From SAR324 cluster bacterium (GTDB lineage: Bacteria; SAR324; NAC60-12), in contig JADFZZ010000001.1 in assembly GCA_015232315.1 (NCBI GenBank), forward strand, positions 272,835 to 336,834: a stretch of 64,000 bases of DNA, written 5' to 3'. The notes beneath the pieces were generated by a model, which made no database searches, was not told where the DNA came from, and saw nothing but the letters and a program-made list of their open reading frames with translations. Shown here piece by piece: positions 19,693 to 61,110 of the stretch (positions are counted from its first letter, which is position 1; each line of letters starts with the position of its first letter). Position numbers and translations under genes: made by a program.

Positions 19693-19706
19693 ATTGACCT
19701 CTCAGG

Positions 19707-20228: not shown

Positions 20229-20237
20229 GACAGCCTT

Positions 20238-20882
20238 TTAATTGTATTGAGGGAACGGATTTTTTTCCTTCCGATTCATGTAGTATACGGTCAAATGAGT
20301 TTTTACCAGACCATCTTTCTGAGACAATCTCATTTTGGCCACTTCCAGTACCAGGGGAAGTTGTCTCAGTTCTTTGATGAAACGGAAGACAGTTCCATAT
20401 TGCGCGCTGAAATATATATCCAATTGTTGAATATTCAGAAACTGGTTTATTTTCTCATTTTGATAGGCATTGTTGATCTCGCCTTCAATGATATCAATAT
20501 TCTGAATTCCTGTCAGTCGGGTGATACCATAAAGCATTTCATACAGGGAAACGGCTTCAATTGGAATATCTACGCCCTGAAAGGACCGATTAATCGCATC
20601 ATAGGTGATCTGTTTGGGAAGTGCTGACGCCAAAGGATAACTATCCATAAACGTATCAGAGATTTTTTTCCACTGGGCCTTGTCTTCTTCTGTTACTTGT
20701 GAATATTGCGACACCTGACGTTGGGTTGATAAGACCTGTTTCTGAAGTTGTGTCAGCATGTCTTGCTGTTGTGATGTGTCCATGAAGGCCATACCTGCCA
20801 GATACCCCGTGATGAGCAGAACGATGAGTAACCCACCAAGGATTAATTCAGAGATAAACCATTTCAGATCTTTTATATTCAT
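20238..20882 (-). CDS. PilO/MshJ-like inner-membrane pilus assembly protein
   Basis: 214 residues from the ATG at 20882, eight bases after the stop of the PilMN gene; a longer upstream extension would overlap that gene heavily. Residues 9-30 form one membrane segment, followed by a coiled coil (QQQDMLTQLQKQVLSTQRQV) and a ferredoxin-like domain ending in short strands. This is the layout of PilO/MshJ, which pairs with PilN in the inner-membrane alignment complex. Confidence 0.7.
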   Translation of the reverse strand: MNIKDLKWFISELILGGLLIVLLITGYLAGMAFMDTSQQQDMLTQLQKQVLSTQRQVSQYSQVTEEDKAQWKKISDTFMDSYPLASALPKQITYDAINRSFQGVDIPIEAVSLYEMLYGITRLTGIQNIDIIEGEINNAYQNEKINQFLNIQQLDIYFSAQYGTVFRFIKELRQLPLVLEVAKMRLSQKDGLVKTHLTVYYMNRKEKNPFPQYN

Positions 20883-20889
20883 AATACAC

Positions 20890-22470
20890 TTACGGCTGAG
20901 AAAGAGGAACGAGTTCGAAGGTAACATCAAAGCGCAATGTGACCTTTTTTTCTTCATTCTGTTTGATGACAGTATTTCCTGTGGATGAAGCATTGTCTTC
21001 TGAAATTTTTAACGGCCGGGCTTCCAGTTTGGAAAACAGCGGAGACGCCTGTAAGGCACTGTAAAATCGATCAAAGTGACGTTTGGCACGATCTGCGTTG
21101 GTATCTTCCACGATGCCTGTCATATTTCCAATCCATCCATTGGGGGTGATTTCGGTGTTGATTTCTTTCAGGATCATCTGTTTGGGAATCACCTGACTGA
21201 TCTTTTTGTAGGGATAATGCGATAATTGATATGGTTTATAGATTTCTCGTTCTGTCAACACTTTGACCCGGTGATAAAAACTCCGGATGCTGTCATCCTG
21301 TTGCAGTTTTGCCAGAACAGCCTGTTCGTTGGAAAGGATGCCTTGCTGTTCCATCACTTTGACATTCAATTCAGCATATTCTGAATTCCAATGAAAAAAT
21401 AAAATACCCATGCAAAGGATCAAACCCAGAAACAGTCCGCCCAGAATAAATCTCAATTTGTGGAAAATCGTTGGTGGATTCAGTAAGTTGAGTTTATCCT
21501 TGTAGGGATTTCCCAAGGCCAGGCTCAGGGCACCACTGAATAAGCCGAGGTGATCCTTGAACGCTTCATTTCCCTGGAAATTCCCAATATCCAGATCTGC
21601 GATGGAATCATAGCCATTGACTTCCAGAGGTTTCCCATCCACTACATGCTCGCCAACAGCGTTGGCTGGAACCGGCATGCCGCAAAGGATCACCCTTTTG
21701 ATATGATAATCCCGGAAGTTTTGCTGAAAATACTGTATGGATCGTGAAAGTTCTGTTGAAAAGCGATGCAGGTTTTGCCCTGTGAATTCCTCAATATCAG
21801 CGTTCTCTGCCTGATTGTCCGATTTCCCGAGAAAAAATTCCCGTGAGAAAACAAACCAGTTATTTTGCATGAACGAAATAGTATTCAAGCCTTTGCCGAC
21901 ATAAACATAAACATCAATTTTATTTTCCAGTTCACTTTTATCAGAAGTATCACAGCAAAAACCGGACATTGTCATGTTCATCGGTGCAATCAATACTGGT
22001 TTGAGACCAGCTTTTCTTAAAAACGCGTCAAATTGATCAACTTCAGGGCGTTCCATGGAAATGAGCAAATGTTCCCAACGTGGATTCCCTTTTTTGTCTT
22101 GGACCGTCTGGACCATTTTGTTGTCAAAATAAAGACTGGCGACCGGTTTGTTATGCAATTTTTCAATATTTCTATTGAAGATGGCCTTTAACTCATTGCT
22201 GCTGAGATCTGGCAGAACAATCCGTTGATAATGAGCCTGGTCTGTCAGCAGGGAGGCATAGGTGATATCTGTCTTGAATTGACGAATCTTGAGCAATTTT
22301 CTTAATTCAGCGGCCGATCGTGCATCATTCTGGGTTTGAGTGTAAATAGCCGAATTGAATACCTTGATCCGGTTGTTTTCCATGCCGACTTCGATGATAT
22401 AATAACGCTGATCGGCCTTGCTGATGCATAAGACACGTTTCGAATACAAAAAAGAGGATTTATCGCTCAT
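20890..22470 (-). CDS. PilM-PilN fusion (MshI-like) pilus assembly protein
   Basis: 526 residues. Residues 1-320 resemble the actin-like PilM/MshI fold. At residues about 326-333 the protein reads KLNLLNPP, the typical cytoplasmic N-terminal PilN signature by which PilN docks into PilM. A membrane segment (about 340-359), a coiled coil and a C-terminal PilN-like periplasmic domain follow. In most type IV pilus systems pilM and pilN are separate genes; here ligand and receptor are joined in one chain. The next gene is PilO-like, as expected in a pilMNOP order. Confidence 0.72.
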   Translation of the reverse strand: MSDKSSFLYSKRVLCISKADQRYYIIEVGMENNRIKVFNSAIYTQTQNDARSAAELRKLLKIRQFKTDITYASLLTDQAHYQRIVLPDLSSNELKAIFNRNIEKLHNKPVASLYFDNKMVQTVQDKKGNPRWEHLLISMERPEVDQFDAFLRKAGLKPVLIAPMNMTMSGFCCDTSDKSELENKIDVYVYVGKGLNTISFMQNNWFVFSREFFLGKSDNQAENADIEEFTGQNLHRFSTELSRSIQYFQQNFRDYHIKRVILCGMPVPANAVGEHVVDGKPLEVNGYDSIADLDIGNFQGNEAFKDHLGLFSGALSLALGNPYKDKLNLLNPPTIFHKLRFILGGLFLGLILCMGILFFHWNSEYAELNVKVMEQQGILSNEQAVLAKLQQDDSIRSFYHRVKVLTEREIYKPYQLSHYPYKKISQVIPKQMILKEINTEITPNGWIGNMTGIVEDTNADRAKRHFDRFYSALQASPLFSKLEARPLKISEDNASSTGNTVIKQNEEKKVTLRFDVTFELVPLSQP

Positions 22471-22497
22471 GAGTTAACTACCCTATAGGTCAAAAAA

Positions 22498-23697
22498 TTA
22501 TACGACAGCTTCAATCATACCAAACATTGGAAGCATGATCGCCATGGCAACGACAATCAACACGCCTGCCATGATAAGCATCATAATCGGTTTGAATGCC
22601 GCTAGAGCATTATCAATCGCTTCCGGAATTTCTTTATCGTAATATTCTGAAATTTTAGACAGGGAACTCTCCATCATGCCTGTCACTTCTCCCAGATTGA
22701 TCATTCTCAGCACCAAGCTTGGGAACGTGTTTGTCTGCTTGAACGCCTCACTCATGGGCTGGCCGTTGATGATGGCTTGTCTCGCCTCCAGAATGGACGT
22801 CTCCAGACTTTTGTTCAGTACCACTTCGGAAACTATTTCCAGTGTTTTAGCCAGATCGACTCCGCTCATAAATAACAATTTCCAGAAATGAGCAAATCGG
22901 GACATGGCAATTTTCTGGTTCAAGGGACCCATGATCGGTAACTTGAGTTTCATTCGATCAATCGCCAACTTACCCTGGGACGTTGATCCAATATATTTAT
23001 AAGCACTGATCATGCCTACAATCAATCCGAGTAGCAAATACCAGTAATTGCTCATGAAATCACCAAGCCAAAGCAAAAACCGGGTTGGTCCGGGAAGTTG
23101 TTTTCCTCCCATAGCGAATAAATCACTGAAATTGGGAATCACGACTGTCAAAACCAGCACGATCAGACCTGTCAGCATGGTCAACATGCCAAGAGGATAT
23201 CTGACAGCGGCTTTGACCTGTTTTTTAAGGTCCCGATCCCATTCCAGCAAAGAAACAAGATCCTTGAAAATCACATCCAGTTGCCCACTCTGCTCGCCTG
23301 TATTCACGATGGCACGGTATATTTCATTGAAATAATTGGGATACAGACCGAGAGCCTCTGACAGCGAATTTCCAGATTCAACGTTGATTTTAATATCCTG
23401 AACAACTCTTTTAAAATGGTTTTGTTCCATTTCTTCGAGCATATCATCCAGCACATCAATCAACGGAAGTCCTGACGGAAGGCCAGTAGCCATCTGAACA
23501 GTAAACAGCAGCGTATCATTGGCACCGCTGAAAAACCCTTCAAGAAAGTTGGTTCCACGGGATTGTTCCTTGTAATCAATCAGCAGCAATCCACGTTGTG
23601 CCAGCAATTTTTCAAGCTGATCCGCATTTCCCGCGACCAATGATCCTGTGATAGCGGTTCCCGCTTCAGTTTTCGCATTATAATTATATGCAGGCAT
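22498..23697 (-). CDS. PilC/GspF-type inner-membrane platform protein
   Basis: 399 residues, the usual size. Two T2SSF domains are separated by membrane segments (about residues 165-190, 215-235 and 365-392). Family hallmarks include the N-terminal strand PAYNYNAKTEAG, SGNSLSEAL with INTGEQSGQL in the first half and MSRFAHFWKLL, GEVTGMMESSL in the second. It is the rotor/platform driven by the adjacent ATPase. AGGATCAGG precedes the ATG. Confidence 0.92.
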   Translation of the reverse strand: MPAYNYNAKTEAGTAITGSLVAGNADQLEKLLAQRGLLLIDYKEQSRGTNFLEGFFSGANDTLLFTVQMATGLPSGLPLIDVLDDMLEEMEQNHFKRVVQDIKINVESGNSLSEALGLYPNYFNEIYRAIVNTGEQSGQLDVIFKDLVSLLEWDRDLKKQVKAAVRYPLGMLTMLTGLIVLVLTVVIPNFSDLFAMGGKQLPGPTRFLLWLGDFMSNYWYLLLGLIVGMISAYKYIGSTSQGKLAIDRMKLKLPIMGPLNQKIAMSRFAHFWKLLFMSGVDLAKTLEIVSEVVLNKSLETSILEARQAIINGQPMSEAFKQTNTFPSLVLRMINLGEVTGMMESSLSKISEYYDKEIPEAIDNALAAFKPIMMLIMAGVLIVVAMAIMLPMFGMIEAVV

Positions 23698-23715
23698 ACC
23701 TGATCCTTATTATTT

Positions 23716-25419
23716 TTATGAATATTTGGACATATCCAGTTTTGGTGCCCAGAAACCACTTCGTTCCAGTTCCGCCAAAGAAATCATGCCCTCGGCAACC
23801 TTGCGGAGTCCATCAATTTTCAGGGGAATCATTCCATTTTCGACTGCGGCTTTTTCAATACGGCTACTATCCCCCCCCGCGACAACGAGTTCTCTGATAG
23901 TGTCATTCACGATGAGAAGTTCAACCAGAGCAAGTCGTCCGGCAGTTCCCTGCCCCTTGCATTCAGCGCAACCGGCACCTTTGTAAAACACCACTTCTCC
24001 GGGGAGTTTCCCCAACTCTTCAAGAACCTGGATATGTTTCTCTGACAAATAATCCTCTGTTCGACAATGCGGACAAATTTTTCTGACCAGACGCTGGGCA
24101 ACGACCGCCAGAATCGCGGAGGAAACCAGAAAGGGTTCTGCGCCCATATCCGCCAGTCGCGGAAATGCTCCAGACGCCTCATTGGTGTGGAGTGTGCTCA
24201 ACACCAGATGTCCTGTCAATGCGGCCTGAATGGCGATGCCAGCGGTTTCCCCATCTCTCATCTCTCCAACCATGAGAATATCAGGATCCTGGCGCAACAG
24301 GGCACGTAGTCCGGAGGCAAAGGAGAGTCCTGCCTTTTCGTTAACCTGAGCCTGACAGATCAGTGGCAGTGTGTATTCCACCGGATCTTCCAGTGTCATG
24401 ATATTTTTGTCCAGAGAGTTGACATAGGACAAAGATGAATACAACGTCGTACTTTTTCCTGAACCAGTTGGACCTGTGATCAGGATAACGCCATAGGGTT
24501 TTTTGAGAATTTGTAGAAATTGTACCAGCACATCCGGCATAAACCCTAATTTCTGCATACCAACTTGTAAACCGCTGCTATCCAGAACCCGCATGACCAG
24601 TTTTTCACCGTCAACAATAGGGTAGCTTGAAAAACGGAGAGAAATATGACGGGAGCCATACATGAATGAAAGTTGACCGTCCTGAGGCGCTCTGGTGATG
24701 GAAATATCCAGGTTGGCCATGATTTTCAGACGGGTAGTGATCGCGGACTGAAGCACCTTCGGCATGACAGGGCCAGGCAATAACGCACCGTCAATACGGT
24801 AACGTGACCGGATAATGGTCGCCGTTGGTTCAATATGAATATCTGTTGCCTTGTTTTTTACGGCATAGACCAGCAGGTAATCCACCAGGACTTTGATGCC
24901 ACCTTCATCAGAGGCCGCACCTTTTTGGGCACCAATATTTGATTCCGCGGCGGCGATCAATTCTTCCAGCGTTACGTCATCCTGTGCCGCTTCATGAAAA
25001 TAACAGCGGTCCAGTGCTGTTAAAATATCTGTTTCTGTGGCTTGTACCACATCGATGTAGCGTCCGGACATTTTCTGGAGTTCATCAATGGTCTCAATGT
25101 CAAAGGCATTGGCCATGGCGACCAGAAACATGTCCTGTCCCATGCTGATTGGAACAACCAGCCTGTCCCGGGCAAATCTTTCAGGAATCATGCTTGCGGC
25201 ATCTGCAGGAAATTCCGCGTTTTTAATATCAATAAAAGTTCGTCCGGACTGACTGGCCAGCACTTCAGACAAATCTTTTTCCCGAACAAATCCATGCTGA
25301 ATGAGAATTTCACCCAGCAGTTTTCCGGTTCTTTTCTGTTCGCGAAGTGTAATCCCCAGTTGTTCCTCTGAGATAAATCCCCGATCAACCAGCATTTCCC
25401 CTAATGATTTCCCCTTCAT
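23716..25419 (-). CDS. PilB/MshE-type pilus extension ATPase with MshEN domain
   Basis: About 567 residues from the ATG at 25419, which has AGGAAGG just upstream; a GTG six codons earlier would overlap that site. The N-terminus contains two tandem motifs, KSLGEMLVDRGFISEEQL and KLLGEILIQHGFVREKDL, matching the MshEN pattern that binds cyclic di-GMP in MshE. The ATPase core has Walker A GPTGSGKST, the Asp box, RQDPDILMVGEMRDGETA (Walker B) and a His box, then a four-Cys zinc site (CPHC...CAEC). It is the first gene of the assembly operon and powers pilus extension. Confidence 0.92.
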   Translation of the reverse strand: MKGKSLGEMLVDRGFISEEQLGITLREQKRTGKLLGEILIQHGFVREKDLSEVLASQSGRTFIDIKNAEFPADAASMIPERFARDRLVVPISMGQDMFLVAMANAFDIETIDELQKMSGRYIDVVQATETDILTALDRCYFHEAAQDDVTLEELIAAAESNIGAQKGAASDEGGIKVLVDYLLVYAVKNKATDIHIEPTATIIRSRYRIDGALLPGPVMPKVLQSAITTRLKIMANLDISITRAPQDGQLSFMYGSRHISLRFSSYPIVDGEKLVMRVLDSSGLQVGMQKLGFMPDVLVQFLQILKKPYGVILITGPTGSGKSTTLYSSLSYVNSLDKNIMTLEDPVEYTLPLICQAQVNEKAGLSFASGLRALLRQDPDILMVGEMRDGETAGIAIQAALTGHLVLSTLHTNEASGAFPRLADMGAEPFLVSSAILAVVAQRLVRKICPHCRTEDYLSEKHIQVLEELGKLPGEVVFYKGAGCAECKGQGTAGRLALVELLIVNDTIRELVVAGGDSSRIEKAAVENGMIPLKIDGLRKVAEGMISLAELERSGFWAPKLDMSKYS

Positions 25420-25585
25420 AAACCTTCCTGATAGCACAAATAAAAAATGTAATGATAAGGTTTGTTTATTCCTTAACTAAACAAATTCAGAATGACAACA
25501 AAAATTTTTTATGATTGATTTTAATTTTCAGCAGGCCTGTTTGAGTGACCACATGTTTTATAAAACAGAGTCCTCGGGTGTCCCC

Positions 25586-31081: not shown

Positions 31082-33229
31082 ATGACTACACCACAAACAG
31101 CAAAAACCTTTGAAAATTTATTACTCAAGGTTGTTGAAGCTCAGATGAATAAAGCCTCAGAAGAAAATTCTGAAACCTCTTATCTGGCTCCTGATGCTCG
31201 AAAAAATCTGTTATCTCAACTCAAATTTGTTCTGGACCACGAAGGTGCGCAAACCCCCCTGTTTGACCAGGTCAGTCTCGAATCCATGGTTCACGTGTTC
31301 CGCCAGGCGGATGGTTATCAAAAACGGCTTTATGAAACTGTGCATCCGTGCCATGTGCTGTTTAAAAATCCTGCTGATTGGTTCGCTCAAAGTTATCGTT
31401 TTTTATATGATGAAGTATCCTTCCTCGAACTGATCCGGTATTTTGGAGGCGGAAAAAACGCTACTGAAAAAGAAATTATTTTTCGCTCACTGGTCGCAAA
31501 ACTCATTAAAACTCAGGAAACAATCCGTACCATTGAACAGAATACGGATTTTTTAGGAAAATATCTTAAAAACTATCCCAAGTTTGGAAAGCATTATCCT
31601 GAATATCTTCAAGAAAGCAAACAAAGCCCCAAACTCCTTTCAGCCGAAGACAGCCTGAAGCATGGAATTCATGTTCTGATTCGGGACATAAGCATCAGTT
31701 GTCTGAAACTGTTGACAGAACTTAAAATTCCTCTTCCTGAAAACGCAAAAAACGCATTTGACAAGAAAATGTATTATGATGCGCTGGTTCTCACTATCCG
31801 TACAGCAAAAGACAAAGACATGTTTGAAAAAGTAACACAGGAACAATATCCCGCTCTCGTCAAGGCGCTAGGTGTTGTGATCGAAAAATCATTGTTGCAT
31901 CCTGAAAGCTATTTATTTCAGCATGTCAAGCGTCAGTATATGACTGATTGGCTGGTGCACCATCTGAGAGAGTTGGATCAAACATCCAAAGACGTATTTT
32001 ATCAGGCGGGAAAAGCCAGTATCTACGAACGCTTTTATGCATTAATGTTGCCAGATGACTTTGTCAAACAGTTGAGTGACCGTGCCAACTTGAAGAACAA
32101 TGACATTATCGAACTTGAAGAATCAGCCCTGGAAGGTTTGTTTGAACCTGAATTTTATGATCTTTTACTCAAAGTGTACACGCGTTATAAGGATGATAGC
32201 AAACTTGGAAAAGGCTTTCCTATGTCGGCCCAGGCTTTATCATCCGCTGGTGATATTTCATGGGAAAAACAGACAATGGTGGCCCAGGTTGCCAAAAAAG
32301 TGGAAGCAGGAAATCTGACACCGGGACAAGCGAGTGGGTTTGCTTCGATGCTGGCATCCCTGAAAAAAATCACAGTGTCATTCACCAGCATTGCAAAAAA
32401 GAAAACTGAGGCAAAGCAGTCGGCTAAAGCGACTCCAGTCGAGGAACCTGTAAGCGCTACGCCACCCGTCAATCCGGAAAACGCCCCACCTCCTGTGATT
32501 TTTAAGGTCAGCCACTCTGGAACTTTGCTGGAGGCTTGTTTCCCCTTACCTAAAAAAGATGTCCCCAATCCTGTCAAGGGGCAGAAGCAGGATATTTCTT
32601 ATAAAGATTCTGACACAGACGCCGCCATGGCTCCGGGGGATCAGGAATATTTTGTGGACCTGTTCAATCTGACAAAAGAAAGTAATACTCCTGTCAATAA
32701 GTATTATATAAAATTTTCCAATGCGTTGCTGGCAATTTTAAGATCCTACAACAAGGCCACCAGACATGTGCAGAAAAAAATGTCGGTTGCAGGGAATGTC
32801 ACGTCATACAATGAAGATGTCCTGTATCTTAAAATCACAGATGAAATTATTTTGGCGCTTGGGGTTGCGAATATGGGACAAAGCAAAAATCTGGGTAAAG
32901 TTCCCAATGGCCAGACTGTTTACCTGCGCTTGTTTGTAAACGGGGATTGGACACAGGCACTATTCAGAACAAATGCCGCTAATTTCATGAAAGAATTCAT
33001 GATCGGGGATGCGGCAAAGCGATTTCGGGAAGTGCAGATTGAGCATTTTCAAAACAAGCCTGAATTTGAGGCTCTGCTCACCCATGCATTGATCAAAGTG
33101 ATAGAAAGTTTACCACAATCAGATTTTGATTTTCTCAATGATGAATCCCTTGTCGGATTTGTCGGATTGATTCAGCGTAAAGCCCAACTGCTCAAAGACA
33201 AGGGCGTTTCTTTTGATAAATTGATATGA
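31082..33229 (+). CDS. large soluble protein of unknown function
   Basis: 715 residues, no signal peptide or membrane segment. Residues 1-435 are mostly helical; about 437-475 is a Lys/Ala/Pro/Glu-rich linker; the C-terminal 240 residues form a second domain with beta strands (QTVYLRLFVNGDWTQALF). I recognise no family. GAGGTGG lies upstream of the ATG. Its TGA overlaps the ATG of the acyltransferase gene (ATGA), so the two are translationally coupled and may function together, for instance in envelope work, but nothing in the sequence proves this. Confidence 0.75.
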   Translation: MTTPQTAKTFENLLLKVVEAQMNKASEENSETSYLAPDARKNLLSQLKFVLDHEGAQTPLFDQVSLESMVHVFRQADGYQKRLYETVHPCHVLFKNPADWFAQSYRFLYDEVSFLELIRYFGGGKNATEKEIIFRSLVAKLIKTQETIRTIEQNTDFLGKYLKNYPKFGKHYPEYLQESKQSPKLLSAEDSLKHGIHVLIRDISISCLKLLTELKIPLPENAKNAFDKKMYYDALVLTIRTAKDKDMFEKVTQEQYPALVKALGVVIEKSLLHPESYLFQHVKRQYMTDWLVHHLRELDQTSKDVFYQAGKASIYERFYALMLPDDFVKQLSDRANLKNNDIIELEESALEGLFEPEFYDLLLKVYTRYKDDSKLGKGFPMSAQALSSAGDISWEKQTMVAQVAKKVEAGNLTPGQASGFASMLASLKKITVSFTSIAKKKTEAKQSAKATPVEEPVSATPPVNPENAPPPVIFKVSHSGTLLEACFPLPKKDVPNPVKGQKQDISYKDSDTDAAMAPGDQEYFVDLFNLTKESNTPVNKYYIKFSNALLAILRSYNKATRHVQKKMSVAGNVTSYNEDVLYLKITDEIILALGVANMGQSKNLGKVPNGQTVYLRLFVNGDWTQALFRTNAANFMKEFMIGDAAKRFREVQIEHFQNKPEFEALLTHALIKVIESLPQSDFDFLNDESLVGFVGLIQRKAQLLKDKGVSFDKLI

Positions 33230-37238: not shown

Positions 37239-40200
37239 TCACATTTTCCCATATTCATAACGGGTGTGGACCTCGGTCTGGCTGATGCTGGCAGGAGCCA
37301 CATATTGAACAGGGGGTTCGCCTTTTTGTGGAAAAATTCCGCAGGTTTCATAATCCTTGCTGCCATTTATTTCAGGAGGATAAGGCAGACCGCCACCAAA
37401 CGTTTCGAGCAGACCGCGGATCACACTGCGGTTGTTGATGATGTTCCAGACACTGCTGATGCCTTCATTGACTTTAATGATGCCTGAAAAACGTTTGCCG
37501 TCATGGATCAGCCGATCCACTTCAAGCGAACCTGTCAGTGCGTTGCCTACGATTTCAGGATAGTAGGTGCCGGCTCCGCAGAAGGCTTCACGGTGCTCAT
37601 AGTGGTGAACGTAATCTCCATAAAACAGATCGCCGGTGATTGCGATGTTTTCCATAGCACTGAATTCTTCATCCTTTCCCGGTTTGGGCTCGTTGGGATA
37701 CTGATCGGTCAACACCTGGTGATCTTTGACACCCAGACCGCAAACCAGCGCGGGAATTGCCGTCCTCCAGCCGAAATTACGGATTACATTTTTCAGGCTT
37801 TCGCCGGTTTCCACATTCAGAATTTTTCCGAGTCGTTCAGGCCCTACTCCGGTGTAATATCGGCATTGGCCATTACGTTCCCGGCCATCGCCAATCCCTG
37901 TGCCAAAATGAATCAGGCTGGCCATGGCCCGAGCCTCCAGATTGTTGGCAATGTAGGCCAACGAACGGTAAATCGCATGGATGCTGGTGGTGTTGATCAA
38001 CTTGGCTGTCACTTCGCCGGGAAGCAGATTCACAAGCTGGGTCAAGGCGTGAATATCCCGTTGGGCATTCATGATGCGGAGGGTTTTTTCAGTATTTCGC
38101 ACATCGCCCACAATGATGGAAACCGGCCGGGCGTTATCCAGTCCCAGCAGAAATGTTCCCAGACGGGGAGTCGGGTTGTTGCCGTCACGAACCTGACCAT
38201 CGCAGGGATGAAAATATTTTTCCGGAGGTATGGCGGTGGTGATGGTGGTGTCAAATTCCTGCTTGATTCCGCAGTATGTGACGCCGTTGACCAGTAAATT
38301 GATTCGATTCTGTTCATTCAATGGACGTGGCGTCACACCATCAGACTGGTACCCCAGCAGATTGATGGTATCCGCGATGATCGACATATCGCCCACCGTC
38401 TTGGTGTAACTGCCTTTTTGAACCGAAGACCCCACCTGATTGAGTAATACCACCAGATTGTCTACATGATCGACTCCATTCAACACCACCACCATGAGAT
38501 CAATGTTATACAACCGATGAATGAGATCGACCAGATACTGCAACCGTTCCACTTTTCGCACCAAAATCGACACATTGGAAATTTTACTGGAATCCAGTTT
38601 GTTGATCAGGGCGATGACACGATCCACGGACGACGCATTGGCGGAAAGCGTGTTGATGAACACGATCAGGCGACCGAAGGGATCCTGTTGTCCGGTATCA
38701 TTCAGATTCAGATAAGGATTTTCAGGATTGCTCGGAAACACGCCTTTCATCAGATTCACCAACCGTTGAGTGCCGCTGAGTTTTTCCGCGTTCTGATCCA
38801 GACCATTGATCAGTGCCGCCACGGTGACAGCACCGGAATCGGTGTTATGCAATTCATTGATCAGCCGGACCATGTGATTCTGGATGGTCAGTTCTGGTGC
38901 TTCATCAATTTTGTTCAGAATATCCAGCAGTTTTTCCATGCCGGTCGGTTGTGTTTCACGTGATAAATGGTTGAGCAGTACCACAATATCCGACGCACCG
39001 GACGCGCCATTGATGAGATCTGAAAACACCCTGATTTTGCGGACATCACGAATCAGCAGGACCAACCCCGGAAACTGTTTGAAATCCAGATCATTGATCA
39101 GTGTCACCACGTTGTCAGAGCCTTTGCCTGAAATTTCTCTGAGCAGGGTCGTCAATCGGCCGAAATGGTCCTCACGGGAAGTATCATCCGGTGCGTTGTA
39201 TGGAGTTTCTGTGCTTTGCTGTCCAAGACCTTCGAGCAAAAGCATCAATCGGTTGACACCATTCTGTTCAGGATTTTTGCTGTAGCGCAGACCATTGATA
39301 ATTCGAGCGACATTTTCAGGACCACGGGACGTGTTATTGGCGGAAAGATCATTCACCAGCCGGACAATATGGTTGCGAATCGTGAGTGCTTTGTGAGCGT
39401 TTACCTGCGCTAATATATCTTTGAGTTTTTCACAACCGGAGGGCTGACTTTTCTCGTCGAGATGATTGATCAGGGAACTGACTCGACTCGCATCTTCAAT
39501 GCCGTCAATGAATTCTGTCAGTGCTTTCGAATTGCCCAGACTGTTGACCAGATAGCTCAGACATGCCAATTTATCGGAATGGATGTTGTTGAGCAGACCA
39601 TGGACGTTTTGAGATCCCCGCTGAGACAATCCTCCCAGTAAATCCGTGAGTTTCGCAAATTCCTGACTGTTTCGACCTGCTTTCTGTTCATGGCTCATTT
39701 CAGCCAACAGTTTGACCACCTGATTTTCTCCATCCGGCCGGATGCCATTGATGACCGATGCCACATTGCGGGCACCGTTTTCACCACGGGACAACTGATT
39801 GATAAAACGCACCAGTGCCCCTTTGATGGTCAAACCCGGATCATGAGCCACAGTTTCCAGCGTGATCCGAAGTTTGTCACAACCGGAGGGATTTCCCTGA
39901 AGATCCAGATGATTGATGAGTTCCGCCACTGTCGCGGCATCATCCAATCCGTTGATCAGGTCGGTGAGGTAACCGATTTGTTCCATATTGGCGATCAGTC
40001 CTGACAAACATCCCAGTTGTGGCGCTTTGATCACATTCAGCAGAGTGACCACATTCCGGGAACCGGCAGAGTCAATGGTATTGATGAGCGTCAGCAAGCG
40101 GCCAAAACGATCGGATTTTGCAGTCTCGTTCGGTTTTCGGTAGGGATGATCCATATCGTTTTCATGCAGAATTGACATGAGTTTGGCCATTCTCAGCACG

Positions 40201-42626
40201 GCACTCTGGTCCAACGTATTCCCCTGATGGCTCAAACCATTGAGAATCCGGGCAACGTTTTCCGCACCGGAAGAGTCTCTGGAAAGTTCATTGATCAACC
40301 GGACCAGATGGGTTTCCACCGACAAGTCCGGATCATGATCCAGCGCGGCAATCAGGGTCAGTACATTCCTGGTGCCGGGGGCGGGCGTTTTTGAGTCCAG
40401 ATGATTGAGCAGTGTGACCATTTGTTGAGGCGAATTCAAACGGTTGATCAGACCTGTCAGCAGGGAAATTTTGGGAACATCCCGCACCAGCATGACCAAG
40501 GCCGGAATCTGCTCTGATTTTACATCGTTGATCAGGGAACTGATATTGGCCGTGCCATGATCTGACACGGCATTGATTAGGGTGGTCAATCGGCCGAAAT
40601 GGTCGGTGGTTCCAGTATCTTCCGGATGATTGTAGGGGTGTGTCAAATCCTGACGGGACACCCCGGCGAGAATCTGGGTCAGGTTGGCAATACTGCCGGA
40701 ACGGGTATGCAGATCATTGAGCAGATTGGCCACATTTCTTGCGCCCTGACTGCCTGACGAAAGATCGTTCACCAGCCGAACCAAATGTCCGATTGTCAAA
40801 TCCGGATGCTGATCGATCTGATGGATCACCTGTGTGAGTGTATCCACCGCATTGGGTTTGCCACCCAGATCAAGCGCGTTGAGCAGAGTCACCACGTGTT
40901 CCGGTTCACGGATACCATTGACCAGATCGGCGACATTCCGGATCTGATACACACTGCCGATCAACTGGATGAGCGCGGAGATCTGGGCCGGATCGGTCTG
41001 ATTGAGCAACACCACCGTGTTGCGGGTGCCTGAACCTGAAATGGCGTTGATAAATGCGGTCAACCGGCCAAACGCATCGGATTGATGGGTATCGAGGGCG
41101 TTTTTATAGGGATGTTCCGGATCTTGTGTGGACAAGCCTTTGAGCAGAGACACCAGTTGATACAAGCCGCCGGTATGGTTTTCTTTAAATTCCAGCCCAT
41201 TGATGATTTGAGCTACATTGGCCGCACTGGTTCCATGAGACAGATCGTCGATCAGACGGATCAGATGGCTTTGAACAGACAGAATTTCCTCTCTGGAAAT
41301 CTGATTGATGAGTTCCGCCATTTTCAGTGCGCCCGTCGGCGAATTCCGATGGTCCAGATGCTTCAGAATGACCAGCATTTGCTGAACATTGCGTACCTGA
41401 TTGATCAGGATGACCAGATTTTGTGGATCCTCCACTTCATTGATCAGGGTGATCAGCGATGCTAATCCATCCTTTGAGTTTTGAGCATTGGTTTGAATTT
41501 TTTCCAGAATCATCGACAGGTTTTCAATGTTTTCCACATAACCAATGATTCCCGCCAGTTTATCCATGTCCTTCACTTCATTCAACAAACGCATGAGATT
41601 CGCCTGCTTCTGCGGAGTGTCAAACGTTTGATTCAGCAACACAGACAACCGCCCGGGACCCTTCAGACGATTGATCAGCATGGCAAGTCGAACAGTGGCT
41701 GTTTGATCGTTGTTGTCTTTGATTTCCTGTAACACTGTGACCACTGATTTCGTTTGCTCAATATAGTTCAGGACTTCCACAATGGCCTGGGTATTTTCCA
41801 CATGATTCAGCAGGTAAACAATACGATCCAGATAATCTTTTTCTTCTGCCGACAGTTTTCCGGGATCCGCTTTGCCAAGGTTGACATCCAGCATGTCGGT
41901 GATTCGACTGAATTCTGTCACATTATCCACGATTGAAGCAATGGTTTGAAAGGTCTGAATCCGGGCCAGCACATATCCCAGTTTGATCAGATACCGCTGT
42001 TCTTCTGGTGAAATTTCAGCAATGCCGGGAGTTTTTTTATAATTGACCAGATTGACCGCTCGGCGAGGATCATGAATGTCATCAATCAGATGGGCGATGA
42101 TGGCAATATGGTTGAAATCATTCAGCGTACAGGCACTGTACCACTGTTTTTCCGGAATCTGGAACCGGGGTTTTCCCTGTGGGGTTTCCAGTTGGTTGCA
42201 TCCGGATTCCTTGATGGCATACAACAGTGATAAGATTCGGTCGCCGCCGGATTCGAGCGAAAAATCAATCAGCACATTCATGTCCATATCCCTGAGCAGA
42301 TAGGCCAGGTCCAAGGACTCAAGTCCGGGATGCTCGCGATTTTCAGGGCTGTTCATCAGCACATTCAATTCCTGTGGCAACTGCATGGTGAACTGGGCAA
42401 TCAAGGAACGGTCTGAATCGGATAGTTTTTCACCCTTGTAAAAATAATAGTTGACGAGGATCAATCCGAAAACAGATACGGCCGCGGCTATTGCCAGAAA
42501 AACCCTGAATTGCAGCAGATGTTTGAACGACTGCTGCTGTTTCTTCAGACTGAAAGTGATCAATATCAGTCCTGTGACTAGGGCGATCAGGGTTAAAATG
42601 ATTTCAATAATGATTTTTATCTTCAT
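37239..42626 (-). CDS. giant membrane-anchored 'LIN'-repeat protein, unknown family
   Basis: About 1795 residues from the ATG at 42626 (GGGGGC upstream); an ATG four codons earlier is also possible (numbering below uses it). Two membrane segments (about 8-30 and 46-65) are followed by a huge Leu/Ile/Val/Asn-rich helical region. Short sub-repeats of about 20-25 residues end in L-[IV]-N-x-[LIV]. From residue 458 to 1415 these group into six tandem super-units of 149-165 residues, each with HLVRLINDLS, then an ARIINGL block, HPY...DT, FGRLTTLINA, and LLNHLD. Residues 1415-1799 form a Cys-containing C-terminal domain shared with the divergent lipoprotein. The likely topology puts the repeats in the periplasm. 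I recognise no Pfam-type family; the regular helical repeats suggest a solenoid scaffold. Confidence 0.85.
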   Translation of the reverse strand: MKIKIIIEIILTLIALVTGLILITFSLKKQQQSFKHLLQFRVFLAIAAAVSVFGLILVNYYFYKGEKLSDSDRSLIAQFTMQLPQELNVLMNSPENREHPGLESLDLAYLLRDMDMNVLIDFSLESGGDRILSLLYAIKESGCNQLETPQGKPRFQIPEKQWYSACTLNDFNHIAIIAHLIDDIHDPRRAVNLVNYKKTPGIAEISPEEQRYLIKLGYVLARIQTFQTIASIVDNVTEFSRITDMLDVNLGKADPGKLSAEEKDYLDRIVYLLNHVENTQAIVEVLNYIEQTKSVVTVLQEIKDNNDQTATVRLAMLINRLKGPGRLSVLLNQTFDTPQKQANLMRLLNEVKDMDKLAGIIGYVENIENLSMILEKIQTNAQNSKDGLASLITLINEVEDPQNLVILINQVRNVQQMLVILKHLDHRNSPTGALKMAELINQISREEILSVQSHLIRLIDDLSHGTSAANVAQIINGLEFKENHTGGLYQLVSLLKGLSTQDPEHPYKNALDTHQSDAFGRLTAFINAISGSGTRNTVVLLNQTDPAQISALIQLIGSVYQIRNVADLVNGIREPEHVVTLLNALDLGGKPNAVDTLTQVIHQIDQHPDLTIGHLVRLVNDLSSGSQGARNVANLLNDLHTRSGSIANLTQILAGVSRQDLTHPYNHPEDTGTTDHFGRLTTLINAVSDHGTANISSLINDVKSEQIPALVMLVRDVPKISLLTGLINRLNSPQQMVTLLNHLDSKTPAPGTRNVLTLIAALDHDPDLSVETHLVRLINELSRDSSGAENVARILNGLSHQGNTLDQSAVLRMAKLMSILHENDMDHPYRKPNETAKSDRFGRLLTLINTIDSAGSRNVVTLLNVIKAPQLGCLSGLIANMEQIGYLTDLINGLDDAATVAELINHLDLQGNPSGCDKLRITLETVAHDPGLTIKGALVRFINQLSRGENGARNVASVINGIRPDGENQVVKLLAEMSHEQKAGRNSQEFAKLTDLLGGLSQRGSQNVHGLLNNIHSDKLACLSYLVNSLGNSKALTEFIDGIEDASRVSSLINHLDEKSQPSGCEKLKDILAQVNAHKALTIRNHIVRLVNDLSANNTSRGPENVARIINGLRYSKNPEQNGVNRLMLLLEGLGQQSTETPYNAPDDTSREDHFGRLTTLLREISGKGSDNVVTLINDLDFKQFPGLVLLIRDVRKIRVFSDLINGASGASDIVVLLNHLSRETQPTGMEKLLDILNKIDEAPELTIQNHMVRLINELHNTDSGAVTVAALINGLDQNAEKLSGTQRLVNLMKGVFPSNPENPYLNLNDTGQQDPFGRLIVFINTLSANASSVDRVIALINKLDSSKISNVSILVRKVERLQYLVDLIHRLYNIDLMVVVLNGVDHVDNLVVLLNQVGSSVQKGSYTKTVGDMSIIADTINLLGYQSDGVTPRPLNEQNRINLLVNGVTYCGIKQEFDTTITTAIPPEKYFHPCDGQVRDGNNPTPRLGTFLLGLDNARPVSIIVGDVRNTEKTLRIMNAQRDIHALTQLVNLLPGEVTAKLINTTSIHAIYRSLAYIANNLEARAMASLIHFGTGIGDGRERNGQCRYYTGVGPERLGKILNVETGESLKNVIRNFGWRTAIPALVCGLGVKDHQVLTDQYPNEPKPGKDEEFSAMENIAITGDLFYGDYVHHYEHREAFCGAGTYYPEIVGNALTGSLEVDRLIHDGKRFSGIIKVNEGISSVWNIINNRSVIRGLLETFGGGLPYPPEINGSKDYETCGIFPQKGEPPVQYVAPASISQTEVHTRYEYGKM
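38441..41267 (-). repeat. six in-frame super-repeats of about 160 codons
   Basis: Taking the first HLIRLIDDLS-type block as the unit start, the copies begin at residues 458, 618, 777, 941, 1090 and 1255. The FGRLTT block falls at 523, 681, 845, 994 (degenerate, FAKLTD), 1159 and 1321. Spacings are 149-165 residues. The copies are clearly related in protein but well diverged, so they are old duplications rather than recent slippage. Confidence 0.8.
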
Positions 42627-42935
42627 GGTTGCCCCCATTGACTTCGAGAATGATCAATCAAAATCCTGTTAAGATCGGTACACTTGTGCTGATAAGTGTT
42701 TTACACAAAAACGATTATCGTCAAATTCGATGTCGTAAAATGTCCCGATGACATAATCCTTCAGGAAGATCAAGGTCTCTTCATTGAAAGACAATTTACA
42801 CAACATCCCGGACTGTTAGCGACATGACCGCTTCCTATTTTTAAATTATTGGTACAACTGTACTAACAGTTATTTAATTGCTGTCAAAACTCTCATTAAA
42901 CAAAACAGGTTTCAACTACAGACCAAGGAGGCAAT
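42627..42935. promoter_or_regulatory. shared divergent control region of the two repeat-protein genes
   Basis: This 309-base gap separates the starts of the two giant paralogues, so both promoters must lie here or nearby. Visible elements are AAGGAGG (42925-42931) four bases before the lipoprotein ATG, and inverted repeats ACACTT/AAGTGT (42680-42699) and AACTGT/ACAGTT (42856-42871). No clear -35/-10 pair stands out. Confidence 0.45.
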
Positions 42936-45900
42936 ATGCGGAAATGGGGGATCACCACCATCTGGTTCATCGTCATGATCATCAGTCTTGTTGGCTGCCA
43001 AAAACGGCCGGAACGTACCTTCAAGGTTTCAACCAGTTATTATGACCACAAGGAACAGGAAAGTCATCAGACTGATACTGATATGGACGCGTTGCTCCAG
43101 GGGATCGGTCAGTACAAGTTTGACGCGCTGGTAGCCGGATTGGGGGAAGCCAATCTGCAACGAATGGTGTATGAAGCGGGACACAGCAATATTATTGATT
43201 TGATCAATCAGATTGGTGATCCGCAGAAACTGGTATCATTGATGTCCGGTGACAATGCGTTGAGCGTTACTGAAGTGCTGACACTGCTGAACGCTACCGA
43301 TGAAATGATCCGCGTGGAAAATCCGCCATCTCAGGATACCATCGGCAAAATCGCAAATGTCATCAATAATGTGCATGACATGAACTCCCTCAAAGACATT
43401 GTGCATGGAATGTTGCCGTATCAGGACCTGACCGGAATTGAACGTCTGAGTCTGGTGATCGCACTGGTTGATGAACAAGTGAACACCATGCCGAACCTGT
43501 TGAATGACGTCGCAGGCACCTCCGCAGGAAAAGCCAAACTGCTTAGAATTTTGAATGAAGTGGAAGAACTGAAAAAACTCACCACTTTCATCAACAACCT
43601 GCTTGCACTGAGCAATGCCACCAACCTGATCAATTCAGTAGACTCAGCCGGAATGGAGGCTTTGATCACTACGGTTCGATTGACCGCAAATTCAGAGATG
43701 ATCGCCACCCTGGTTAATTTGCTGGATGTGCAGGGTGTGGTCAGCAATGACGAGGATTTTGAAGGAACCGCCAGCCAGACCTGGGCTGTCTCATCAACTG
43801 GTGGGCACATGTGGGTTATCGACAATCAGCAGGCCAGCGGCGGACAGAACAGCGCAGGCACACCGGAAGGCATGGCACACAATGAAGTGCTGAGTGCCGA
43901 GATGTTCAGTCACATCATTACCGCTGGCACTATGAATTTTCATTACAAAGTCAGCACGGAGTCTGGTCATGACTATCTGAAATTTTATATTGATGATGTG
44001 CTTCAGGGAAAAATTTCCGGCGAAACAGGCTGGAGTCAATCACCAGACTATTATGTGGAAGCAGGTGTTCATCGTTTTCGCTGGGAATATGAAAAAGACG
44101 CCTCTGGAAGCGCAGGACAGGACCGAATATGGCTGGACAACATTGTTCTGCCCGGAGACAAGGGAACACTGCGTACTCCCTACGAAAAAGTCGCGATTTT
44201 GCTGAATCAGCTTAAACCACAGATTCCTGACGCGATACCCCGGATTATTAATGGTCTTACACCAGCCGGAATGGTCACACTCACCCGTTTGCTCAATGGC
44301 ATTGAATATCCTCAGGACATTCAGGCGGAACCCCGTTTGGTCAGCATTGTCAATGGCATTCAGGCCATTCCCACCATCATTGAACTGCTGAACGGCATCA
44401 ATGACAATGGTGCGGTTCAACTGCTGAGTCTGGCGAACTACATTGACAACACCACCGGGATTGTTGACTTGATCAATGGACTGGCGGCTCAGGGAAGCGG
44501 GCGCAAGGCCTATGATCTGATCAACGCCGTGAATTCAACCGGTGTGTTTCAATTTGTCCGTGTGCTGGATGTGGTGGAACCCGCCGACATTGTGACCATC
44601 GCTGATGGCATTTTTCAAACGTCTCATCTGGCAGAAATTCTGAACAACCTCTATCTCAATGGACAGAAAATCTCTCAGGAAAATCAAACCAGCGGTTATA
44701 CCGGTGGACACAAAGTGACGGATGCCATTATGGGGATTAAAGCTGACGCAAATCTTTCCATTGGTTACCATCTGGTCCGACTCATCAACGATATCGCGGT
44801 CAGCGGAACTCATGGAGCAAAAAACGTGGCGGATATTATCAACGGGATGGAACCTCCCACCACCGCATCACCGGAATATGGCATCACCAAGATGGTCAAG
44901 ATACTGTCCGGGATGTCAGCACACGATGAAACGTATCTTTATAAAAATCCGACGGATTCGGGGTATTCAGACAAGTTTGGCCGATTGACCACCTTGATCA
45001 ACAGCATCTCTGAATCTGGAGCCAGTAGCGTTGTCAAAATCATTAATGGAATGGAGGTTGCTCATTTGACGGCATTGACCCAGCTTGTGTCCGATATCAG
45101 CCAGATCCGCCAGATTTCGGAACTGATCAATCAGGTCGATGACGCGGAAAATATCGCCGTGATTTTCAATAATCTGGATCAACAGATCGATCCAAACGGT
45201 GTCACAAAACTGAAAGATGTGATCCATCTGGTCGATGGTAACACGCAACTGGAGATCCAGCATCTGGCCCGCTTGATCAATGACCTGGCCGCACAAGGTG
45301 GAAACAATGGAGCGAGCAATGTGGCTCGCATCATCAATGGATTGACACCTGTCAGTGTCTCTACACAGGAAACCGGCATTATCCGGGTTGTGTTGATCAT
45401 GCAACACTTATACGCCCAGGATTCAGGGAACATTTATACCAGTCCGGATCAAACTGGCACCAGCGATCAGTTTGGCCGCCTGACAACATTAATAAACGCT
45501 ATCTCCGCGAATGGAACCGATAATGTGGTGATTCTGCTGAATAATCTTTCCAACCAGAAAATTCAGGATCTGGGCTATTTGCTGACGCACACAGGCCGCA
45601 TTCGCTATGTTTCTGATCTGGTGAACCGCATGATCAATGTCCAGTTGCTGACCGTGATTCTGAATGGAGTGAACAGCATTGGTTCGTTGACCCAGATTGT
45701 GAATGATATTGGCGGCTCCACCATTTCTGGAAGTGTGGTCAACGCCAAAGCAGTGGGTGATATGACCATTCTGGCGGATACCATCAATCTGCTGGGATAT
45801 CAGGCCGATCGGGTCACACCTCGATCCCCCACAGAACAGCAACGGATCAACACCTTGATCAACGGCATCAATTCCTGCGGCGTCGGGCCGGCCAATAGCA

Positions 45901-46874
45901 GTCAGTCTGAAACGCTGTATGATCTGGATTCACCCTGGAGTCATTTGCGGGCGGAAGGACAGTCCTATTGCCGTGAATACGCCAATTATGGTTCTGTCAA
46001 ACGGCTCAGTTCCCTGTTGCTGGGACTCAACTCGGCAGTGCCGTTGTCTCCGCTGGTGGGTGATGTGACTGACACCATGAAAACCGTCAAAGTAGTCAAT
46101 GGTATTAGGGATATTCAGCAGTTGATCAATCTGGTGAATTATCTGCCGGGACAGGTGCTGAGCACATTTTTGAACACCATCGACTCCAGTGACGCGGTGG
46201 TTTACGGATCTGTTGTATTTCTGCTCAACCGTCTGAACGCCCAGGAACTTGCGGCCTTGCTTCATTATGGCACAGGACTTCCCGGAGACAGTTCATGCAG
46301 TTATTTCACGGGTGTCGGACCACAACGTTTAGGCACTCTATTATCCGCTGAAACAGGGCCACGACTGAATAATCTGCTGAACAAATTCGGGGTACGCCAT
46401 GCGATTGCCGCCGTGGATTGTGGTTTGGCAACCCCCAATGCCGGAACGCCCCAGGATTTTGACAACCGTCACAGTGGCGGCGGACGCAATATCAGCCTGG
46501 GTCGGACTGAAGAATTGCGGATTGACAGCGCACCCAGATATCCGGGAGGAACAGGCGCAGGCTATATCCATACGTATCGTGCCAGTGAAAGTGCCTGCAA
46601 AAATTTTTATTCTGAAAAAGCGGCACTTACAGGTTGGTTGTTCCTGTGTCCCAACAAGAGTCAGGAAATCGACAAGATCATCTGGGAAAGCTATAGTTTC
46701 TGTCTGGTGGTAAAGGCTGGTCCCGGTTTGGCCGCAGTGTGGGATATTGTCAACGGAGAAGGTTTTGTGGGAACCCTTGTGGATAAATATGGTGCCGCCA
46801 GCATTCCATCTCCGACAAATAAAAATCCTTCCAGTTGCCAGGTGAATCCCGCGTTTGACAACCCTGTGCATTGA
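42936..46874 (+). CDS. giant 'LIN'-repeat lipoprotein with lectin-like insert, unknown family
   Basis: 1312 residues. The signal peptide ends in lipobox SLVGC (Cys21, followed by Gln, favouring outer-membrane sorting). Residues 50-265 and 410-600 carry degenerate Leu/Ile/Asn repeats (for example LINQI, LVNLL, IINGL). Residues about 270-408 are a beta-rich insert with FHYKVSTESGHDYLKFYID, a Trp-containing loop and a final DRIWLDNIVLPG, like concanavalin/MAM-type jelly-roll domains of bacterial surface proteins. Two full super-units start at 612 and 776 (HLVRLINDI, FGRLTTLINS). Residues 938-1312 match the C-terminal domain of the divergent paralogue (VGDMTILADTINLLGYQ; YFTGVGPQRLGTLL). The strong AAGGAGG site fixes the start. 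Confidence 0.85.
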   Translation: MRKWGITTIWFIVMIISLVGCQKRPERTFKVSTSYYDHKEQESHQTDTDMDALLQGIGQYKFDALVAGLGEANLQRMVYEAGHSNIIDLINQIGDPQKLVSLMSGDNALSVTEVLTLLNATDEMIRVENPPSQDTIGKIANVINNVHDMNSLKDIVHGMLPYQDLTGIERLSLVIALVDEQVNTMPNLLNDVAGTSAGKAKLLRILNEVEELKKLTTFINNLLALSNATNLINSVDSAGMEALITTVRLTANSEMIATLVNLLDVQGVVSNDEDFEGTASQTWAVSSTGGHMWVIDNQQASGGQNSAGTPEGMAHNEVLSAEMFSHIITAGTMNFHYKVSTESGHDYLKFYIDDVLQGKISGETGWSQSPDYYVEAGVHRFRWEYEKDASGSAGQDRIWLDNIVLPGDKGTLRTPYEKVAILLNQLKPQIPDAIPRIINGLTPAGMVTLTRLLNGIEYPQDIQAEPRLVSIVNGIQAIPTIIELLNGINDNGAVQLLSLANYIDNTTGIVDLINGLAAQGSGRKAYDLINAVNSTGVFQFVRVLDVVEPADIVTIADGIFQTSHLAEILNNLYLNGQKISQENQTSGYTGGHKVTDAIMGIKADANLSIGYHLVRLINDIAVSGTHGAKNVADIINGMEPPTTASPEYGITKMVKILSGMSAHDETYLYKNPTDSGYSDKFGRLTTLINSISESGASSVVKIINGMEVAHLTALTQLVSDISQIRQISELINQVDDAENIAVIFNNLDQQIDPNGVTKLKDVIHLVDGNTQLEIQHLARLINDLAAQGGNNGASNVARIINGLTPVSVSTQETGIIRVVLIMQHLYAQDSGNIYTSPDQTGTSDQFGRLTTLINAISANGTDNVVILLNNLSNQKIQDLGYLLTHTGRIRYVSDLVNRMINVQLLTVILNGVNSIGSLTQIVNDIGGSTISGSVVNAKAVGDMTILADTINLLGYQADRVTPRSPTEQQRINTLINGINSCGVGPANSSQSETLYDLDSPWSHLRAEGQSYCREYANYGSVKRLSSLLLGLNSAVPLSPLVGDVTDTMKTVKVVNGIRDIQQLINLVNYLPGQVLSTFLNTIDSSDAVVYGSVVFLLNRLNAQELAALLHYGTGLPGDSSCSYFTGVGPQRLGTLLSAETGPRLNNLLNKFGVRHAIAAVDCGLATPNAGTPQDFDNRHSGGGRNISLGRTEELRIDSAPRYPGGTGAGYIHTYRASESACKNFYSEKAALTGWLFLCPNKSQEIDKIIWESYSFCLVVKAGPGLAAVWDIVNGEGFVGTLVDKYGAASIPSPTNKNPSSCQVNPAFDNPVH

Positions 46875-59268: not shown

Positions 59269-61110
59269 CTAAAAATAATATCCCAGTTGAAGTTCTTGGA
59301 ATGATTTCTGGAATACCTCACGTTGGTATCGGGAAATAAAATGGTGTTGTAAACGCAATTCCCAGTTTCTGTTCCATGACACGGATTGCCCCAGAAAAGA
59401 GTTCAGGTAAAAATCTGTCGGATCGTTATTCCAGGCATCATGACGAATCGTCTGTTTCCATTGAATTTTGTAATTTTCCCAAGGATTTCCGACAATCCCC
59501 CATTCCACAAACGGCCCGAGTCTCTGTGATTTTTCAAAAAAATGTGAAAACTCGCCAAATCCGCCCATGATCAAATAAATAATTCCTTTCGACGTTCCCG
59601 GATTCAGACTTCCCCCCATTCCAAGATCCATATCGTATTTGTAACATTGCTCGCATTCCAGATTATCAACAGGCTGGTAATTCACCCCCAGTTTCCATGA
59701 AAGGTTGGGGTCCCATGAAGTGTAGGGTTCGAGTGACATGATGTTGACCAGTCCAATATGTGAAATCTTCACATCCTCGGAATCAGCATGATAATCCACT
59801 GCCAGTTCCAGAAAATCGATCTGTGAAAACGGATCAAAACCCACATCCTTCGCCAGAAGATCATGGAGTCCGGATTTTAAACCCAGACGCAATATCGGAG
59901 TGTCCTGGATGGTTGAGGTTCCAAGAAAAACTCTGGTGACATCATGTCCAAACTCAGGACCATTTTGCTGGTAATCCACTTGTTCTACAACCGATCTTTG
60001 CGGTATTTGCGCCCTGTTGCGCAGAATTTTTTCCAGCAGATGGGTATTGGCTTCTGTCAGTTTCCCACCGGCCTCCCTTTTCCTGAAATCCCAATAGGCA
60101 ATCAAGGCATCCAGGATCTTTACATCATGGATCTCCTGTGGTGCCATGGTGCCATTGTTGACATCCTGAAAGACGGCATAGTCACTGGAATCCAGTTTTT
60201 GAAGTTTGGTGGAAAATTGTTTTTTCAGGGATGGTCGGTAACGAATGGCTTCAATCGCACCGGGAATCTGCGTGACCCGCCTGATAGAATCTGCCGGCAG
60301 ATAATACCAGCGATTGACCTGAGATAAATCCCAGTCGGAATCTCCCAGTTCCAACACCTTGTTGATGATGGTCGAACAGTTTTCTGTCAGAAAATAATAA
60401 TCAAAATAAGTGGTGGAATAGAGTTCCCAAAGATGGTTGATAATCCTCTCAACCGCTTCGGGTTGTAGCTTCAATTCATATTCATAAAGGTCCCTGCTTT
60501 CGGAATTGTTATATTCATTGACCTTCATGTAATACGGCGAAAAGCTGAAAAGTCCCTTGTAGCCTCCCAGCAACCCTCTGAACGCATAAAGCACTCCTCC
60601 GGTTTCACCCTCCGTGTGTGCAGCATAACTTGCGGAGTAATCCAGAAGTTCGTTGCGTCCATTCCATTTGAAGCGAAGAAACGTATGTCCGAAAATGGAG
60701 GCGGGATTGTTGGGATAGGAAGACGAATAAATCAACACGATGGATTGGGCACCGATGCCTGATTTCCATTCGTCGAAATCAGAACATGCCACCTCATGAG
60801 ACGGCACCAACCCGGCTGTTTTTAAAAAACGGAATCTTTCAGGGAAGGCGCATGGAAGGGGTTGGTTGAAATAACCGGCCCGAGCCTGGGTATTTTGGAA
60901 TCCGGCAATGGTTGCGTCCAGTTCTTTTTCAGGATCACTTTTTCCTTCCGGATGTAAAAAGAAGAGAGGACCATCAACCCTGCTGGAGTAATGGCCCTTC
61001 CAGTTTTTTTCATAATGCAGGAGTTTCAGCCAGTACTGATCCAGCCCTTTGGTTTTCAATTGCTGGAACCATGAAGAGGCTTCCAGGGAATGTGCAAAAA
61101 AAAACAGCAA
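59269..61110 (-). CDS. DUF4105 envelope protein, start disrupted by a T9 run
   Basis: 613 residues from a TTG at 61110. The N-terminal 330 residues match DUF4105, a papain-like-fold domain with a His in PASIFGHTFLRF and a Cys in YFLTENCSTIIN; the C-terminal part is beta-rich, ending QLGYYF like an outer-membrane barrel. The annotated start gives a stub signal peptide without basic residues. In another frame, ATG at 61133 starts Met-Arg-Thr-Ala-Phe-Ile-Ser-Leu, a better signal peptide, and would join this frame if the nine-T run (61096-61104) had ten T. It follows the DUF3015 gene closely; these two families are often paired. Confidence 0.75.
   Translation of the reverse strand: MLFFFAHSLEASSWFQQLKTKGLDQYWLKLLHYEKNWKGHYSSRVDGPLFFLHPEGKSDPEKELDATIAGFQNTQARAGYFNQPLPCAFPERFRFLKTAGLVPSHEVACSDFDEWKSGIGAQSIVLIYSSSYPNNPASIFGHTFLRFKWNGRNELLDYSASYAAHTEGETGGVLYAFRGLLGGYKGLFSFSPYYMKVNEYNNSESRDLYEYELKLQPEAVERIINHLWELYSTTYFDYYFLTENCSTIINKVLELGDSDWDLSQVNRWYYLPADSIRRVTQIPGAIEAIRYRPSLKKQFSTKLQKLDSSDYAVFQDVNNGTMAPQEIHDVKILDALIAYWDFRKREAGGKLTEANTHLLEKILRNRAQIPQRSVVEQVDYQQNGPEFGHDVTRVFLGTSTIQDTPILRLGLKSGLHDLLAKDVGFDPFSQIDFLELAVDYHADSEDVKISHIGLVNIMSLEPYTSWDPNLSWKLGVNYQPVDNLECEQCYKYDMDLGMGGSLNPGTSKGIIYLIMGGFGEFSHFFEKSQRLGPFVEWGIVGNPWENYKIQWKQTIRHDAWNNDPTDFYLNSFLGQSVSWNRNWELRLQHHFISRYQREVFQKSFQELQLGYYF

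Follow-up and report, generated by a model that had tools for sequence, protein, structure and literature searches.

Organization of the divergent gene pair

The window, i.e., the whole stretch of 64,000 nucleotides that was analyzed, contains two large genes, designated A and B here, which are read away from each other from a short intergenic region:

37239-42626, minus strand: gene A, LIN-repeat protein of apparent inner-membrane type (1795 aa, 198 kDa; open reading frame with ribosome-binding site)
42627-42935: divergent intergenic region between A and B (309 bases)
42936-46874, plus strand: gene B, LIN-repeat lipoprotein of apparent outer-membrane type (1312 aa, 142 kDa; open reading frame, AAGGAGG at 42925-42931)

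Both open reading frames are intact and lie where the initial annotation had placed them, as a divergent pair around a 309-base gap, and AAGGAGG for B and GGGGG for A back their starts. The best start of A is the ATG at position 42626, which has GGGGG five bases upstream, yields a protein of 1795 residues and is separated from the ATG of B by exactly 309 bases. An alternative in-frame ATG upstream, at 42638, adds four residues, and the residue numbers of the domains, helices and repeat units of A follow this 1799-residue reading. The GC content is 36% in the intergenic region vs. 49% in the genes, and no convincing sigma-70 promoter was found within the 309 bases. The proteins can be divided into the following parts, where C and D are paralogues described below:

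42546-42614, minus strand: membrane helix 1 of A (residues 9-31; hydropathy 2.93)
42441-42509, minus strand: membrane helix 2 of A (residues 44-66; hydropathy 2.48)
41913-42428, minus strand: N-terminal domain of A (residues 71-242), common to D, with two conserved cysteines
41079-41912, minus strand: irregular helical repeats of ~13 residues in A (residues 243-520; motif scan)
38211-41078, minus strand: six units of ~160 residues in A (residues 521-1476)
37242-38210, minus strand: C-terminal domain of A (residues 1477-1799), with C.YYTGVGPERLG, aligned with B, C and D
42936-42998, plus strand: predicted signal peptide and lipobox SLVGC of B (Cys21, Gln at +2; sequence and hydropathy)
42999-43751, plus strand: N-terminal domain of B (residues 22-272), common to C
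43752-44168, plus strand: inserted domain of B (~140 residues, about residues 273-411)
about 44475-44969, plus strand: decayed third unit of B, before the two clear ones
44970-45944, plus strand: two clear units of ~160 residues in B (residues 679-1003)
45945-46871, plus strand: C-terminal domain of B (residues 1004-1312), with C.YFTGVGPQRLG, aligned with A, C and D

Membrane anchors and lipoprotein sorting

The two N-terminal membrane segments ascribed to A are present as helices starting at residues 9 and 44 (hydropathy 2.9 and 2.5, respectively). They are separated by a positively charged loop (KKQQQSFKHLLQFR), which, according to the positive-inside rule, points to a periplasmic location of most of A. 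At its N-terminus, B has a signal peptide with lipobox (LVGC-Q) and thus, as judged by eye and from hydropathy, is a lipoprotein, as the initial annotation had it. The further claim that B is sorted to the outer membrane agrees with the Gln at +2 but depends on a rule from Escherichia coli, where Asp at +2 keeps lipoproteins in the inner membrane. This +2 rule is not valid in all Gram-negatives (PMC6469965; PMC3222651): in Pseudomonas aeruginosa, the inner-membrane signal is rarely Asp (PMC6469965), and Myxococcus uses Lys instead (PMC3222651). In the SAR324 lineage, the rule is unproven. The genome encodes LolA, with a score above the cut-off, and a LolC/E-like protein, of which the best match (250 bits) is below the curated NCBIfam cut-off of 362, and a lipid A acyltransferase gene lies inside the window. 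To judge from these genes, an outer membrane is present, and a Lol-type pathway probably is, too. Directly before the lipid A acyltransferase gene, a 715-residue protein is encoded (31082-33229) that has no match in Pfam or NCBIfam, and the protein encoded at 59269-61110 weakly matches the lipoprotein N-acyltransferase Lnb (E 0.063).

Helical repeats and predicted fold

The smallest repeat in A and B is a helix of ~13 residues with the pattern LxxLINxV. The autocorrelation of hydrophobic residues in A shows peaks at 3, 13 and 16, and also at 161-164. A contains the motif [LIVMF]xx[LIVMF][LIVMF]Nx[LIVMFA] 42 times and B 32 times, vs. 1.7 and 1.0 times in shuffled sequences, which rules out that the repeats arose by chance. 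The higher-order unit of ~160 residues is marked by FGRL and LVRLIN-GA.NVARIING. Six copies are found in A, with FGRL or FAKL at residues 523, 681, 845, 994, 1159 and 1321, and two clear and one decayed copy in B, so that this element of the initial annotation, too, stands. The units are 20-44% identical to one another; the closest are the last one of A and the last one of B (44%). The irregular repeats of A (residues 243-520) are related to the middle parts of C and D (z 7-9).

The relatedness of A and B extends over most of both lengths, with 29% identity between residues 536-1775 of A and 81-1310 of B, and is highest from the last repeat unit through the C-terminus (40% over 441 residues), which confirms that the two proteins end in the same domain. 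Their likeness could result from gene conversion between neighbors. An unlikely, broader form of this explanation holds that the proteins are plain paralogues from the duplication of one gene, that their N-termini were swapped by recombination and that neighbor gene conversion keeps the C-termini alike, in which case the likeness of A and B reflects proximity rather than interaction. Indeed, A and B are adjacent, repeat arrays recombine easily, and the identities between units within A (about 20-41%) are similar to those between A and B, the last unit (44%) excepted. The paralogues described below bear on this explanation as well.

AlphaFold2 predicted a superhelix of short helices for the first two units of A (pLDDT 77, pTM 0.77) in one of five models, the other four reaching a pLDDT of only 39-46; the prediction thus represents a single good model and no consensus. 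The input was a seven-row alignment of repeat units, every row of which came from the window. The model consists of 18 helices of 9-14 residues each, connected by short turns, and supports the helical repeat solenoid proposed in the initial annotation. Residues 417-1312 of B, modeled from a three-row alignment, gave a pLDDT of 34, and this result was taken only as "all helical."

No described family was recognized before, and this still holds. Searches of Pfam, NCBIfam, PHROGs and PDB sequences yielded only chance matches for A and B. Among these is PDB entry 8k06, which matched residues 425-525 of B (E 8e-4, 20 bits) inside the repeats and was judged a chance match. Foldseek found no match to the two-unit model at E ≤ 0.001 in the PDB or BFVD. 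The best PDB matches were designed helical proteins (E 0.018 and 0.031, TM-score about 0.15). Phage tape-measure proteins, with E ≥ 0.04 and low TM-scores, were rejected, as the likeness is one of helix content only.

Two further paralogues and a mosaic of four

Two more proteins with the same type of helix are encoded in the same genome and were missed by the initial annotation:

L010:4794-7346, minus strand: C, predicted lipoprotein (850 aa)
L016:5780-8074, minus strand: D, predicted lipoprotein (764 aa)

Both have diverged from A and B and are unlinked, on different contigs. Profiles of the four members and of their domains revealed no fifth member in this genome. Hence, the family has four members here, two per N-terminal type. 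In comparisons with local shuffles, the N-terminal domain of A is related to that of D (31.5% identity over 200 aa, z 23.5) and that of B to that of C (33.9% over 239 aa, z 16.8), with z ≤ 4.2 for all other pairs. The C-terminal domains pair differently: z is 55 for A and B, 24 for C and D, and ≤ 5.3 for the other pairs, again against local shuffles. In sliding windows, the best partner switches along all four proteins. Consistently, the maximum-likelihood quartet was AD|BC for the N-terminal domain (p-AU 0.999, alternatives <0.0005, 100% bootstrap) and AB|CD for the C-terminal domain (alternatives p-AU about 3e-8, 100% bootstrap). The two trees thus conflict, and the AU test rejects the alternatives for both. 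Since the alignment between the AD and BC types of N-terminal domain is weak, what can safely be stated from these comparisons is that two N-terminal types are combined with two C-terminal types and that all four combinations are present.

The anchor tracks the N-terminal type: A has two transmembrane helices and D has Asp at +2, whereas B and C have Gln and Ala, respectively, at this position. By eye and hydropathy only, the lipoboxes of B (SLVGC) and D (IVSGC) fit the lipoprotein pattern, whereas that of C (SLTNC) fits poorly, with Asn at -1. In D, the Asp at +2 is followed by Ser instead of the usual Asp, Glu or Gln. Hence, A and D look like inner-membrane types and B and C like outer-membrane types, where the locations of B, C and D would follow from the +2 residue. 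Apparently, the four proteins make up two sets, each of which has a C-terminal type of its own and provides one protein for the inner and one for the outer membrane; the genes of the second set are unlinked, as C and D occupy separate contigs with different neighbors. The inner/outer pairing proposed in the initial annotation therefore gains independent support from C and D, which likewise comprise one protein of each type, but its membrane assignment still rests on the +2 rule. The conflict between the domain trees indicates that the anchor type and the partner-like C-terminus were inherited separately, as would be expected for matched pairs. Gene conversion is made a less likely source of the likeness of A and B by the location of C and D on different contigs. 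That these two nevertheless have the same C-terminal type and different N-terminal types counts against the plain-paralogue explanation.

The inserted domain of B

The ~140-residue domain inserted in B had also been overlooked. It matches open reading frames in two other genomes from this phylum, G046 and G032, with 31-32% identity (E 8e-10 and 2e-9, respectively); these encode short, otherwise unrelated lipoproteins (loci L011:3003-3962 and L012:2479-3051). They were rejected as family members, since the alignment is confined to this domain. In a plasmid search, the domain was also matched in a plasmid-borne fibronectin-type protein of the actinobacterial Thermobispora. No Pfam model matches it.

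Gene neighborhood and distribution

The A/B pair is flanked by an enolase-like open reading frame and a gene for an AAA_14/DUF4143 ATPase, and no TolQ/TolR-type stator is encoded among the adjoining genes. As no neighbor is common to all four of A, B, C and D, the gene context does not disclose a function. D is the last gene in an apparent operon (L016:5780-10270), after two genes for predicted secreted, possibly β-barrel proteins of 387 and 351 residues, the second of which overlaps the start of D by four bases; neither protein has a match in Pfam, NCBIfam or the PDB. Located 3' of C is a gene for a lipoprotein (lipobox LAGC-D; L010:1727-4897) that has an NHL propeller at its C-terminus and contains HEASH, a motif resembling a metallopeptidase site. 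On the same contig, the open reading frame at L010:6-923 resembles an Rhs-type C-terminus. A type IV pilus/type II secretion-like cluster, with a secretin, a T2SSF protein and neighbors, is located in the window at 17962-25437.

Two further explanations were considered. Possibly, though this is somewhat doubtful, B and C are surface-displayed lipoproteins that serve as scaffolds in adhesion or in a matrix, and the inner membrane contains A and D as separate proteins with the same type of repeat. The repeats would then bind external or periplasmic ligands, and no A-B bridge would exist. That small lipoproteins of relatives contain the domain inserted in B, and that D is co-encoded with two predicted secreted, possibly β-barrel proteins and C with an NHL-propeller lipoprotein, agrees with such roles; independent roles, however, leave unexplained why A and B share a C-terminal region specific to the pair. 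Quite improbably, A and B are accessory scaffold rings of a larger envelope machine, e.g., for a pilus, flagellum or lipid transfer, rather than a two-protein bridge. The periplasmic FlgY, an MgtE/FliG-like ARM superhelix, is a flagellar scaffold in Campylobacter (PMC11870540), and type IV pilus-like genes are present in the window. Yet, the latter are more than 11 kb away, no machine gene adjoins any of the four genes, and the family is absent from relatives.

Searches with three profiles revealed no relatives of A and B in another 51 genomes from the phylum, a set that includes no further genome of the source genus. Neither were relatives found in genome contigs, phages and viral contigs, nor on plasmids, where only the inserted domain of B was matched, nor in 385 genomes of three other phyla, a search that had no positive control. 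As no relative was found, the family is an orphan known from a single genome among the collections searched, and co-occurrence elsewhere speaks neither for nor against a pair of A and B.

A putative pair of envelope-spanning solenoids

The anchors, repeats and mosaic described above suggest that A-D constitute a new family of envelope proteins that occur in pairs. In the preferred reading, to which we assign a probability of roughly 0.38, A and B would be the inner- and outer-membrane members of a pair of a new α-solenoid family that bridges or scaffolds the envelope. The N-terminal module would anchor each protein, by two membrane helices in A and by a lipid in B, and the periplasmic part would be a long superhelix of stacked ~13-residue helices. 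The partners, or their multimers, may meet through the repeat and C-terminal region that A and B have in common. Together, A and B would then link or scaffold both membranes, and C and D would constitute a second such set, diverged and unlinked. It is rather doubtful whether this can be generalized to cognate pairs of giant solenoids, in which the N-terminal module picks the membrane and the C-terminal one the partner, with two envelope-spanning sets per cell.

The known protein links between inner and outer membrane mostly consist of unrelated partners. If the proposed pairing is correct, paralogous partners with the choice of membrane and the choice of partner in separable modules would represent a new architectural principle. 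Moreover, the superhelix of short helices, for which the search revealed no solved counterpart, would be a source of natural long, regular solenoids. The restriction to one genome in the sampled phylum limits the generality of these ideas, and it shows that large, structured envelope proteins can be private to a lineage.

Comparison with known systems

A and B have the α-solenoid principle in common with HEAT, ARM and TPR proteins but differ from them in their helices of 9-14 residues, in the conserved Leu-Ile-Asn motif and in that no Pfam repeat model matches. The ARM-like superhelices of the MgtE N-terminal domain and FliG, including that of periplasmic FlgY, are alike in being all-helical, with short helices and a small hydrophobic repeat. 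However, they are far smaller than A and B, which count 1300-1800 residues with higher-order units of ~160 residues. In addition, the Pfam model MgtE_N (PF03448) does not match A or B even at E ≤ 1, the FliG model does so only with E 0.046 and 12.9 bits against a cut-off of 550, and MgtE or FliG structures are not among the 50 best Foldseek PDB matches listed. With respect to the proposed function, TolA/Pal and other linkers come closest, as they combine an inner-membrane protein that has a long helical periplasmic part with an outer-membrane lipoprotein (PMC7391070). They have no sequence relation to A and B according to Pfam, and A and B adjoin no stator genes. Moreover, unlike the partners in TolA/Pal, A and B are paralogous to each other.
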